A DNA stretch of 64,000 nt, taken from Acidibrevibacterium fodinaquatile (GTDB lineage: Bacteria; Pseudomonadota; Alphaproteobacteria; Acetobacterales; Acetobacteraceae). The notes under the pieces were generated by a model. It made no database searches. It had not been told where the DNA came from and was given only the letters and a program-made list of their open reading frames with translations. Made by a program: the position numbers and the translations under genes. This document shows positions 4,714 through 62,361 of the stretch, in pieces (the first letter of the stretch is position 1; every line of letters starts with the position of its first letter). The stretch spans positions 1,426,001 to 1,490,000 of the forward strand of contig NZ_CP029176.1 of assembly GCF_003352165.1 (NCBI RefSeq). The letters run 5' to 3'.

Positions 4714-5209
4714 GAGGGGCTGGCGCCGGGATTTTCGGCCTGAGCGCGACGCCTGCCAGGGCGTCCGGGGTTGGGGTTGACGGGATGCCTTGCAGCCGGG
4801 CCGGGATTGCGTCATGATGTCTTTTAACTTGCTGGCGAGCGCGGAGGGGTGTTTTGCTCCGTCTGCGGGGTGCTGGCGGGTTCGGTAGCCCGTGCGGATT
4901 GTGCCCGGTCAGGCGTTTTCGTGCCTGGCGAATAGCATGTCCGGTGCAGCTGGCACTGGTTTGCGCTGATCTATTGCGGTGTTCGCCGACCTGTCGGCCG
5001 TGCCGCCCGTAACCTTGAGATTGTTTGCCCGACCGTGATTTTTCACTCTTCTCGCAATGCCGATGCCCGCAGCGCCTCCCCCGAGGCCGCGGGCGCTATG
5101 TTTGATCGGTGTGAGAGCGGTCGCCCGCGGTCTCTTTCCCGCTTTTCCCGTCGCCGGTGGAGCTTGTTTTGCGCAGCGCTCCCGGCGCCGCTCCGGAGTT
5201 TTCATTTCC
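4714..5209. other. 496-base gap; leader region of rne
   Basis: No convincing gene on either strand; the open frames here lack family resemblance. Two short perfect inverted repeats are visible: GACGCC/GGCGTC at 4748-4753/4760-4765, just after katG and without a T-run, and GCCGAC/GTCGGC at 4985-4990/4993-4998. RNase E genes usually have long 5' untranslated regions used for autoregulation by RNase E cleavage, and this gap is long enough to hold one. I could not place a promoter with confidence. Confidence 0.4.
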
Positions 5210-18898: not shown

Positions 18899-19103
18899 AA
18901 CGGCACCTTATAGCATGTTGCGCCGCAATAAAGGATAGCACAGCCGGCGCAGATCTGTCGTGCGAGCCGGCACGGCCATGGCGGCCGATTTTTTCTCGCG
19001 CCAGGCGTTTTTTTCCTTGCCGTGGCCCGGGTCAGAGTCTTATCTAGGCGACGGAGAGGCGCGCCAAACCGTAAGCGTGCGCTTGTGCCTCGTTCCAGGC
19101 CAT
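18899..19103. other. Gap upstream of the NRAMP leader; no gene
   Basis: Divergent region between the PatZ-like gene and the NRAMP transcription unit. It contains the candidate promoter at 19017-19045. The one open frame here (18960-19148, plus strand) overlaps the promoter, has no ribosome binding site and no recognisable sequence, so I do not call it. Confidence 0.6.
19017..19045 (+). promoter_or_regulatory. Candidate promoter of the NRAMP leader transcript
   Basis: TTGCCG (19017-19022) and TTATCT (19040-19045) are separated by 17 bases. Transcription would begin near 19052, leaving a leader of about 280 nucleotides before the first start codon at 19334. This is a visual match only. Confidence 0.5.
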
Positions 19104-19330
19104 GAGGCTTGGGGCGATTGGGTCAACTTTCTGTCAGGGATCACATGAACCCGCGATCTAGTAGCCAGCCCTCGGAGAGCCATAGTTGGCGCTTAGCGCC
19201 TGCTTTGCCGCCGTCGGGATGGGTCGCCGCCCGGGATCCGCATGTGACCGTTAAGGCGCCAGCGCTTCGCTGCTGACGCCAAACGGCCAAGCCTCCCGGG
19301 CTCGAGTTACCACTTGAGCAAGAGGAGGCT
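19104..19330 (+). ncRNA. Structured leader RNA with Shine-Dalgarno switch (riboswitch-like, class unassigned)
   Basis: A closing helix P1 pairs GAGGCTTGG (19104-19112) with CCAAGCCTC (19287-19295), 9 bp without mismatch. Inside, TCACATG (19141-19147) can pair with CATGTGA (19241-19247). GGCGC-TTA-GCGCC forms a hairpin at 19188-19200. GGCGCCAGC (19255-19263) pairs with GCTGACGCC (19272-19280) with one mismatch. The P1 3' strand also supplies AGCCTCC (19290-19296), which is complementary to GGAGGCT (19324-19330), the ribosome binding site of the next ORF. An inner helix GCTCGAG/CTTGAGC (19300-19306/19313-19319, one G-U) would extend that alternative hairpin. The two structures exclude each other. 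I could not match it to yybP-ykoY, M-box, ykkC or other classes by eye. Confidence 0.6.
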
Positions 19331-19333
19331 GTG

Positions 19334-19537
19334 ATGGCCGTCTTTACCTTTCCTCGTCAGATCCGCGTGCCTGGCAATCGCCCGGCCGTAACACGTCGTT
19401 TGGTTTCCGACGCGGCGCCCGCGGGGCAGGTCGCGCGCCCGGTGCTCGACCTTCGTTGGCGGCACGATGACGAAGGCCGCTTGCGTGCGCATTGGGGCCT
19501 CGCCGCGACGCGCCCGCGGGTATCGTTGCTTGGTTGA
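19334..19537 (+). CDS. Small protein encoded in the NRAMP leader (67 aa)
   Basis: 67 residues with a strong ribosome binding site (AGAGGAGG, 19321-19328) six bases before the ATG; a GTG directly before it is also possible. The second half reads RPVLDLRWRHDDEGRLRAHW, a compact Trp/Arg pattern that I recall from small proteins next to NRAMP genes in other Proteobacteria, though I cannot confirm this. There is no signal peptide or membrane helix. It lies 85 bases upstream of the transporter in the same direction, so it may be a regulatory leader peptide, a translational-coupling device or an accessory protein. Function unknown. Confidence 0.6.
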   Translation: MAVFTFPRQIRVPGNRPAVTRRLVSDAAPAGQVARPVLDLRWRHDDEGRLRAHWGLAATRPRVSLLG

Positions 19538-19622: not shown

Positions 19623-21260
19623 ATGACCCATATCGACAAGCTCGACACCCTGACCAAGGAGGCGGTGCTCGATTCCGCCCATCTCGGTGACATCACCGGC
19701 GCCCTCGGCACCATCCGGCGCGACGATGACGGCCCCCGGCGCAACCTCGTCGCGCGTCTCGCGACTCTGCTTGCGGTCGTCGGCCCCGGCCTCATCGTCA
19801 TGGTCGGCGACAACGACGCCGGCGCCTTCGCGACCTACACCCAGGCCGGCCAGACCTATGGCAGCACGCTGCTCTGGACGATGATCCTGCTCGTCCCGGT
19901 CCTCTATGTCTGCCAGGAGATGGTGGCGCGGCTCGGCGCGGTCACCGGCGTTGGCCATGCGCGGCTGATTTTCGAGCGTTTCGGCCGGTTCTGGGGCGCG
20001 TTCAGCGTCATCGATCTCTTTGCCCTCAACGCGCTCACCATCGTCACCGAGTTCATCGGCATCAGCTTGGCGATGGATTATTTCGGCCTCTCGAAGCCGC
20101 TTGGCGTCCTGGTTGCGGCCGGGCTCACCATTGCCGCGGTCAGCACCGGGAGCTTCCGGCGTTTCGAGCGTTTTGCGGTGCTGCTCTGCCTCGGCAGTCT
20201 CGCGATCGTGCCGATTTTCGTGGTCGCTCATCCCCCTCTCGGCGAGATGGCGCGAGACCTCGTGGTGCCGGGTCTGCCGCCGGGCAAGCTTTCGGACATC
20301 ATGCTGCTCATTATCGGCCTCGTCGGCACCACGGTTGCGCCCTGGCAGCTATTTTTCCAGCAAAGCTATATCATCGACAAGCGCCTGCGCCCGCGCTTCA
20401 TGGCCTATGAGCGGGTCGATATGGCGCTCGGCATGGTCTTTACCCAGGTCGGTGCCATCGTGATGATCGCGATCGCCGCCGCGGCGTTTGCCGGCAAGCC
20501 GGAATTCGGCAATTTCACCGATGCCGGCGGGGTGGCTGCCGGATTGGCCAAATATGTCGGGCGTTGGGCGGGAGATCTGTTTGCGATCGGCCTCGTCGAT
20601 GCGGCGCTGCTCGGGGCTGCGGCGGTTGGTCTCTCCACCGCTTATGCGTTCGGCGATACGTTGTCGGTGCGCCATTCGCTGCACCGCAAGCCGAATGACG
20701 CGCTGGGCTTTTATCTGATCTATGGCGCGCTGATCGCGATCTCGGCGGCGATCGTCTTGATCCCGGGCTCGCCGCTTGGGCTGATCACCGAGGGGGTGCA
20801 GGTGTTGGCTGGCATTCTGCTGCCGAGTGCCACGGTGTTTCTGCTGCTTCTCTGCAACGATAAGGCCGTGCTCGGCCCGTGGGTGAACGGCAAGTGGCAG
20901 AATTTGCTCGCCGGGGTGATCGTTGGTGTGCTGGTTATTCTGTCGATCATTCTGACCGCGGCGGTCGTGTTCCCGGACATCACCGATGGAGAGATCATCG
21001 CGACGCTCATCGGCGGTGCGGTGCTCGGCGTTATCGGCTTTCTTGTCACACGCCTGGTGACGAAGCGTGGCCTGGCGCCGGAGACGGGCGATGTCGCGGC
21101 GCTTGATCGCGAGACGTGGCGCATGCGGCCGCTCGCCGACCTGCCGCCGCTGCGGCTGTCGCCGGCGGCGCGGCTGTGGATGGGCATCTTGCGCCTTTAT
21201 CTCGTGGTGGCGGTGGGCATGGCGTTGTTTGCGGTCGTCAAGCTCGCTCTCAGCCACTGA
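19623..21260 (+). CDS. NRAMP-family divalent metal ion transporter with non-canonical metal site
   Basis: 545 residues, polytopic inner-membrane protein of the SLC11/NRAMP fold. The TM1 motif, canonically DPGN, reads D-A-G-A within MVGDNDAGAFATYTQAG. The TM6 motif, canonically MPHN, reads A-P-W-Q within GTTVAPWQLFFQQS. The Asp is kept, but the Asn and Met ligands of Mn/Fe transporters are both Ala. This departs from MntH and resembles the NRAMP-related branch for which magnesium transport has been reported. A conserved TEFIGISLAMDYFGL segment and RRFERFA follow. Start at ATG 19623; its ribosome binding site is weak, compatible with coupling to the small ORF upstream. Confidence 0.85.
   Translation: MTHIDKLDTLTKEAVLDSAHLGDITGALGTIRRDDDGPRRNLVARLATLLAVVGPGLIVMVGDNDAGAFATYTQAGQTYGSTLLWTMILLVPVLYVCQEMVARLGAVTGVGHARLIFERFGRFWGAFSVIDLFALNALTIVTEFIGISLAMDYFGLSKPLGVLVAAGLTIAAVSTGSFRRFERFAVLLCLGSLAIVPIFVVAHPPLGEMARDLVVPGLPPGKLSDIMLLIIGLVGTTVAPWQLFFQQSYIIDKRLRPRFMAYERVDMALGMVFTQVGAIVMIAIAAAAFAGKPEFGNFTDAGGVAAGLAKYVGRWAGDLFAIGLVDAALLGAAAVGLSTAYAFGDTLSVRHSLHRKPNDALGFYLIYGALIAISAAIVLIPGSPLGLITEGVQVLAGILLPSATVFLLLLCNDKAVLGPWVNGKWQNLLAGVIVGVLVILSIILTAAVVFPDITDGEIIATLIGGAVLGVIGFLVTRLVTKRGLAPETGDVAALDRETWRMRPLADLPPLRLSPAARLWMGILRLYLVVAVGMALFAVVKLALSH

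Positions 21261-62285: not shown

Positions 62286-62361
<76 letters not shown>

Follow-up and report, generated by a model that had tools for sequence, protein, structure and literature searches.

The window analyzed here is a stretch of 64,000 nucleotides from Acidibrevibacterium fodinaquatile (contig NZ_CP029176.1), and the locus of interest is a metal transporter gene on its forward strand that is preceded by a long leader, an arrangement already recognized in a preliminary description of this DNA and supported by the present analysis. Between a promoter-like pair and the transporter gene lie a short upstream ORF (uORF), a hairpin that covers a Shine-Dalgarno (SD) sequence, and a second small ORF, with the following coordinates.

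19017..19045, + strand: promoter-like pair TTGCCG-17-TTATCT, from a by-eye reading of the window sequence
19136..19140, + strand: Shine-Dalgarno-like AGGGA, presumably serving the uORF; an SD-like 4-mer precedes the uORF in 38/46 non-redundant leaders
19145..19276, + strand: candidate uORF for a 43 aa leader peptide, MNPRSSSQPSESHSWRLAPALPPSGWVAARDPHVTVKAPALRC, from the sequence and comparison among relatives
19145..19195, + strand: region 1, uORF codons 1-17, the conserved N-terminal part and presumed pause or abort zone
19229..19236, + strand: region 2, GCCCGGGA, uORF codons 29-31, putative anti-anti-SD, from swap and covariation tests
19285..19339, + strand: hairpin predicted to cover the small ORF's SD and its start codon (GGCCA/TGGCC, AGCCTCC/GGAGGCT, GCTCGAGT/ACTTGAGC)
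19294..19301, + strand: region 3, TCCCGGGC, partner of region 2 or part of the SD hairpin
19324..19330, + strand: region 4, the SD GGAGGCT of the small ORF
19334..19537, + strand: small ORF2, 67 aa (MAVFTFP...RWRHDDEGRLRAHW...), with an ATG at the equivalent place in most relatives read
19623..21260, + strand: Nramp-related (NRMT-like) importer, 545 aa, with GDNDAGA ... GTTVAPW (Pfam Nramp, 1.1e-78)

A similar promoter-like pair, TTGCC(G/C)-17-CTATCT, was seen by eye at equal spacing in three other leaders (L003, L004, L005). The uORF stop lies 8 nt upstream of the SD hairpin (19285-19339). No Pfam match was obtained for the window copy of ORF2, scanned as 68 aa from a GTG one codon upstream; by eye, ORF2 and its equivalents in several Acetobacteraceae and Rhizobiales repeatedly start with MA(V/A)F and contain W...GRL...W. 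At three loci (L012, L011 and L159) it seems to be the importer itself that the hairpin controls. Elsewhere in the window, a tRNA gene at 62286-62358 is the sole Rfam match at gathering score.

The solved structure nearest to the importer (19623-21260) is 7qia (E 5.1e-54; runner-up 9e-19), which we take to be EleNRMT, the transporter of the NRMT ion-site study. An excerpt of PMC8806188 gives the ion site of the NRMT clade of SLC11 as DxxG-TxxA/T. The importer has a TTVA that fits TxxA, and its D65-A-G-A68 has Ala in place of Gly; because DAGA stands where DxxG is expected, we call the protein NRMT-like only. The sequence NDAGG is present in other leader-linked importers.

A DNA search of 60 relatives located the widely shared part of the leader between about 19136 and the point where the small ORF starts. 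The distribution searches used a model of this segment (uORF SD to small ORF start) built from sequence only. The leader was found in 57 of 249 genomes of the family Acetobacteraceae at E <= 1e-4, in 14 of 385 class-wide genomes at E <= 0.01 (7 of them at E <= 2e-10, the other 7 failing a closer look), and in 3 of 398 genomes across the phylum, the window's own genome being counted each time. It was also present at 12 of 80 named importer loci (E <= 3.1e-10), including those of Rhizobium, Sphingobium, Telmatospirillum and the gammaproteobacterium Dyella. From 80 rows we removed 8 weak matches without a uORF (L108-L114, L117) and added one leader by hand (L049), which gave 73 instances, mostly from Acetobacteraceae; removing L016, at a contig end, and L147 and L170, in which no SD was found, left 70, and clustering reduced these to 46 non-redundant leaders. 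The codon table has n = 45, L167 being omitted. An importer HMM match lies downstream of the leader in 63/73 instances and in 41/46 non-redundant ones; the importer is absent within the sequence examined in 10/73 instances, 3 of which have at most 551 bases.

The window genome itself carries a second copy of the leader elsewhere (L017, G000:C1:2897009-2897214, minus strand), in which the uORF, region 2 and the SD hairpin are all present. It is followed by a short ORF and then by a protein that looks secreted and has a carboxypeptidase-regulatory-like domain, and no importer was found within the 1561 bases examined. Similarly, one leader (L007, in G032) precedes a gene for an EipB-like envelope protein, with no importer within the 1500 bases examined, and four further copies (L139, L140, L146, L147) have no importer within 1418-2300 bases downstream.

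The preliminary description had overlooked the uORF (19145-19276), whose start codon is the ATG within the strand 19141-19147, one side of a helix that it had listed. Comparison among relatives brings out this ORF as the conserved element, at the level of the sequence. In leader copies an AGGGA- or AAGGA-like SD is followed by ATG, and in 46/46 non-redundant leaders the frame is open from this ATG and closed after 35-46 codons, the commonest length being 43 (L147 and L170 have uORFs of 34 codons, slightly outside the range of the 46). The ORF2 SD starts 39-54 nt past the uORF stop in 38/46. A short ORF with its own SD thus appears to lie just before a hairpin predicted to hide the next SD. In most copies the peptide starts with M-N/K-P-R-S/P-S-S-Q-P/S-x-E-x-H/D-S-R-R; past codon 17 it drifts, while its length and stop position are retained.

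Codon 11 is acidic in 45/45 leaders, through GAG, GAA or GAC, and codon 15 encodes Arg in 37/45 through a mixture of AGR and CGN codons (AGG, CGG, AGA and CGT among others). Because these residues are kept through differing codons, we argue that selection acts on the peptide; codons 11 and 15, the fixed ORF length and the in-frame spacing are the signs of peptide constraint. Codon 4 is CGA in 40/45, codon 5 TCT in 28/45 and codon 14 AGT in 43/45, and all three rare codons are found in region 1 of the window uORF (CGA4, TCT5, AGT14), together with the acidic residue at 11. In eight window ORFs CGA accounts for 5 of 273 Arg codons, and AGT and TCT for 7 and 6 of 125 Ser codons; since the rare CGA (codon 4) and AGT (codon 14) are nearly fixed, the codon choice or the RNA is also constrained. 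Codon 13 is Asp in 16/45, and the window peptide has one acidic residue near its start, a weaker feature than the mgtL and mgtQ motifs. Counts of synonymous and non-synonymous changes fail to tell the true frame apart from one shifted by +1 (2491/9945 versus 2516/9777 synonymous) and are uninformative on the frame because third positions are conserved too. Likewise, early stops in frames 1 and 2 are a weak control, since they are mostly fixed by the conserved letters ATGA and CTAG.

At the RNA level, the anti-SD arm (19290-19307) has two possible partners, either the SD arm (3:4) or, through its TCCCGGGC, the GCCCGGGA in codons 29-31 of the uORF (2:3). Across the 46 non-redundant leaders, region 2 pairs better with its own region 3 than with swapped ones (z = 6.1, 0/2000), and control segments tested against region 3 gave z = -0.6 for codons 18-26, -0.4 for codons 35-end and 1.8 for codons 1-17. 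The counterpart of region 2 starts at codons 28-30 in 44/45 aligned leaders, and its first base is in frame in 39/45. In an alignment of 45 leaders made without regard to the helix, 90.3% of the 2:3 cells are paired and 23 cells are doubly changed, versus 7.1 +- 2.1 after shuffling (0/500); both sides have changed at 6/8 pairs, a count matched by 25/500 shuffles. Shifting the partner by one column lowers the pairing to 59-61%, and the outermost pair is weak, being unpaired in 19/45. Examples of the helix in divergent sequence are GCTCGGGAG/CTCCCGAGC (L012), CGCGGGA/TCCCGCG (L011), GCTCAGGG/TCCTGAGC (L053) and CCCAGGA/TCCTGGG (L049). Leader by leader, comparison with codon-shuffled uORFs gave 23/70 at p <= 0.05 and 4/70 at p <= 0.01 (median 0.13); support for 2:3 is therefore collective, because individually most helices fail to beat codon-shuffled uORFs.

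The SD hairpin is conserved as well, with compensatory changes among the 46 non-redundant leaders: the swap test for 3:4 gave z = 4.9 (0/2000), and 37 cells are doubly changed versus 21.6 +- 4.4 after shuffling (0/500). Neither the number of doubly changed pairs nor that of pair types exceeds what shuffling gives (330 and 234 of 500), and the GGCCA/TGGCC base of the hairpin lies outside the pairs counted in these covariation tests. By comparison among leaders, then, two mutually exclusive helices with covariation support, 2:3 and 3:4, are found at this locus. A further helix was tried and rejected: a 1:2 pairing of the uORF start with codons 26-38, including 19141-19147/19241-19247, is weak (z = 1.4; 2.8 with 5/2000) and is not claimed here. 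Partition-function folding shows the SD mostly paired with or without region 2, its median probability of being unpaired ranging from 0.24 to 0.39 over all five states. As the SD is mostly paired at equilibrium, the switch would have to be kinetic or ribosome-driven.

These results bear on a reading of the leader as a ligand-binding riboswitch, the view taken in the preliminary description, according to which a domain closed by a P1 helix would fold around a metal or a metabolite and switch the SD hairpin, the ORF being incidental. The observations behind it are largely accurate. The promoter-like pair, both P1 strands (GAGGCTTGG at 19104-19112 and CCAAGCCTC at 19287-19295), the helix TCACATG/CATGTGA (19141-19147/19241-19247), the internal helix GGCGCTTAGCGCC (19188-19200), the helix GGCGCCAGC/GCTGACGCC (19255-19263/19272-19280, one mismatch), the helix GCTCGAG/CTTGAGC (19300-19306/19313-19319, one G-U) and the complementarity of AGCCTCC (19290-19296) to GGAGGCT (19324-19330) can all be read in the window. 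The leader is a structured one, the region 19045-19345 being more stable than chance (z = -3.0, 0/100 shuffles equal), and nucleotide conservation is strong even at third positions (CGA 40/45, AGT 43/45), in line with this reading. The idea of exclusive folds, also in keeping with a riboswitch, stands in that an alternative helix with compensatory changes exists, but this helix is 19229-19236/19294-19301, which had gone unlisted, and not P1.

The 9-bp P1 itself did not withstand comparison. Among eight leaders compared it is found in the window only and is missing from the seven relatives, and it lacks the compensatory changes among homologues that had been named in advance as its test; moreover, in the 100 nt upstream of the uORF, pairing with a leader's own anti-SD arm is no better than with swapped ones (z = -0.8, 46 non-redundant leaders). 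Outside the eight, L002 matches the window at 100% identity along the query, so that it too has P1, and L016, which is nearly identical, has GAGGCCTGG, which fits the same anti-SD arm but for one mismatch. Nor does the leader match a known riboswitch class: it has no Rfam match at gathering score, the best below-threshold E being 0.96, no M-box was matched in the window leader by Rfam scans, and a scan of 18 of the 80 importer loci gave no match in the leaders. A riboswitch would also leave without a role a frame that is open and of near-fixed length in 46/46, with region 2 in frame in 39/45, and an Arg and an acidic residue that are kept via different codons. We consider an aptamer distinctly unlikely; because what is conserved is an ORF whose length hardly varies and whose peptide shows signs of constraint, a leader-peptide attenuator fits the data better. 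The earlier observation is thus partly confirmed and its interpretation partly supported: the region lacks the look of a classic riboswitch, and translation of a conserved mini-gene probably decides between two competing folds.

We propose that this leader is a translational attenuator that would work like Salmonella mgtQ, early pausing on the leader peptide turning the importer on, and to this reading, built on sequence comparison and analogy, we give a probability of about 0.72. A ribosome would translate the 43-codon uORF and, on reaching the stop, would have cleared region 2 and come to rest between it and region 3; the SD arm would then be paired to region 3 (3:4), keeping both ORF2 and the importer off. 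Should the ribosome pause or drop off within the first ~17 codons, region 2 would be free and could pair with region 3 during transcription (2:3), the ORF2 SD would be open, and ORF2 and the importer would be translated. Low Mg2+ may affect how stable the ribosome is, or how it elongates, at the conserved codons, in the manner reported for mgtQ and mgtL. Translation of the uORF, pausing on it and the direction of control are what we infer, the last because equilibrium folding shows no switch; 2:3 would need to form first, during transcription.

Simpler uses of the uORF are conceivable. In plain translational coupling, a ribosome ending at 19276 would melt the base of the hairpin and feed ORF2, so that more uORF translation would mean more importer. 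The short distance from stop to hairpin and the nearly constant uORF length are what coupling predicts, but the covarying 2:3 helix inside the uORF and the conservation of codons 1-17 are left unexplained by it, and abortion of translation at low Mg2+ would turn the importer off; we regard it as unlikely. The same codons 1-17 could instead form an amino-acid or tRNA attenuator, on which ribosomes stall at rare Arg (CGA) and Ser (TCT, AGT) codons when charged tRNAs are scarce. Codons that are rare in the eight window ORFs and frequent or nearly fixed at positions 4, 5 and 14 would suit such a device, yet what usually follows the leader is a metal importer gene, and no amino-acid gene is among the few others identified, which makes this explanation very unlikely. 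Finally, the conserved N-terminal peptide might be that of a small protein acting in trans, for example on the importer; strong conservation is limited to about the first 17 codons, however, and the placement of the uORF against the hairpin, together with the 2:3 helix, suggests a role in cis, so that we give a trans-acting product hardly any credence.

For the attenuator that we favor, the signal is most likely low Mg2+, which we infer; Mn2+ or another ion may serve instead. A Pfam search of the window genome gave no match to MgtE or CorA (MgtA-type ATPases were outside the search), whereas the same search found them in 9 and 14, respectively, of 14 control genomes; the window genome has three Nramp-family genes. 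Among 120 family genomes, whose membership was inferred from handle numbers (sum = 120), CorA is absent from 17/27 with the leader versus 19/93 without it (Fisher p = 6.6e-5, uncorrected for phylogeny). MgtE is present in 12/120, and some genomes that lack CorA have it, such as the leader-carrying G015. The absence of CorA and MgtE and the association of the leader with a lack of CorA fit a Mg2+ importer.

Many importer homologues without a uORF of the window type have a different short ORF that follows an SD. Burkholderiaceae have MPDSDSYPLCR and MPDPEP, Pseudomonas has MDPSSSRPVTLTGMVPPGR, Ralstonia MDSPSRPY, Rhizobiales MNDGPSRP (with TTG as the start codon in most cases) and Streptomyces MDGSSHSPGHS. 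No candidate uORF was found upstream of some importers (for example L030, L032, L036, L044). A signature defined post hoc as an ATG behind an SD, Asp, Glu or Asn at residues 2-4 and at least 3 Ser or Pro in residues 2-10 occurs upstream of 37/79 importers, 3 of the 37 being the window's own uORF type, versus 0/79, 2/76, 0/76, 1/74 and 3/77 in controls, where some of the matches (L026, L054, L068) resemble real leaders. Four Rhizobiales loci (L043, L064, L071, L073) have two uORFs in series, an MGS-type before the small ORF and MNDGPSR or MKDGPSS just before the importer; two Aquitalea loci (L031, L034) likewise have two, MPSDS and MDPYPSS. In Burkholderia sp. H160 (L026), a second DSDSYP-type uORF, at position 4728, and then a second small ORF lie downstream of the importer.

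It is tempting to see in these ORFs a common theme. NRMT-like Mg2+ importers of many Proteobacteria and Actinobacteria might be controlled by short leader peptides rather than aptamers, with each uORF sensing Mg2+ through the ribosome and acting on a structure that hides an SD; this extension is tentative and we would put it slightly short of even odds. The lineage-specific sensor uORFs would be, with the same reserve, MNPRSSSQPxExDSRR, MPDSDSYP, MPDPEP, MDPSSSRP, MNDGPSRP and MDGSxxSPGHS, the SD-hiding structure having been examined for the MNPRSSSQPxExDSRR type alone. If true, ribosome-based Mg2+ control would extend to a different transporter family and to other phyla, and the recurrent uORFs would form a natural variant set for learning which nascent chains destabilize ribosomes at low Mg2+. 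The Acetobacteraceae leader would itself be a covariation-supported attenuator that matches no Rfam family, present in 57 of the 249 genomes searched. In open-licence PMC, no uORFs before NRMT-like genes were mentioned in the titles and abstract starts of the matches listed, and no paper was found containing the uORF peptide.

Several known systems resemble this leader in part, as far as excerpts of the cited papers describe them. The M-box that precedes NrmT genes (PMC4072509) is likewise a cis-acting RNA control of an Nramp-related Mg2+ transporter, but there an aptamer binds the metal, in most cases together with a transcription terminator, and no M-box match was found here. The translational M-box of Mycobacterium (PMC12810186) comes close in architecture, being a Mg2+-linked leader with SD, anti-SD and anti-anti-SD elements that controls a small conserved ORF; its sensor, however, is the M-box aptamer, none of which was found in our leader. 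Ribosome-based control of Mg2+ uptake is represented by mgtL and mgtQ in E. coli and Salmonella (excerpts of PMC11282234 and PMC8092293). Like the window leader, mgtL of E. coli and Salmonella encodes a leader peptide before a Mg2+ importer, and its early residues destabilize the ribosome in low Mg2+, as may happen here, but it works through Rho-dependent termination and has an EPDP motif (excerpt of PMC11282234), in place of which uORFs of the present kind carry an acidic residue at codon 11 with His or Asp at codon 13. The MPDPEP uORFs of Burkholderia relatives are closer to mgtL and resemble its destabilizing EPDP (same excerpt). The nearest parallel for the proposed attenuator is mgtQ, found before mgtB in Salmonella, in which 2:3 forms and the transporter SD is opened when the ribosome is held up early in the uORF (excerpt of PMC8092293). 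In that account mgtQ is an intergenic ORF of 8 codons, whereas our uORF has 43 codons with region 2 inside it; the peptide is also another one, and the Nramp-related importer is preceded by a further small ORF. Common to both, judging from the same excerpt, are a short uORF before the SD-sequestering stem-loop of a Mg2+ transporter (here a putative one) and the alternative 2:3 and 3:4 helices; early acidic codons promote downstream translation in mgtQ, and the one acidic residue near the start of the window peptide may play a like part.
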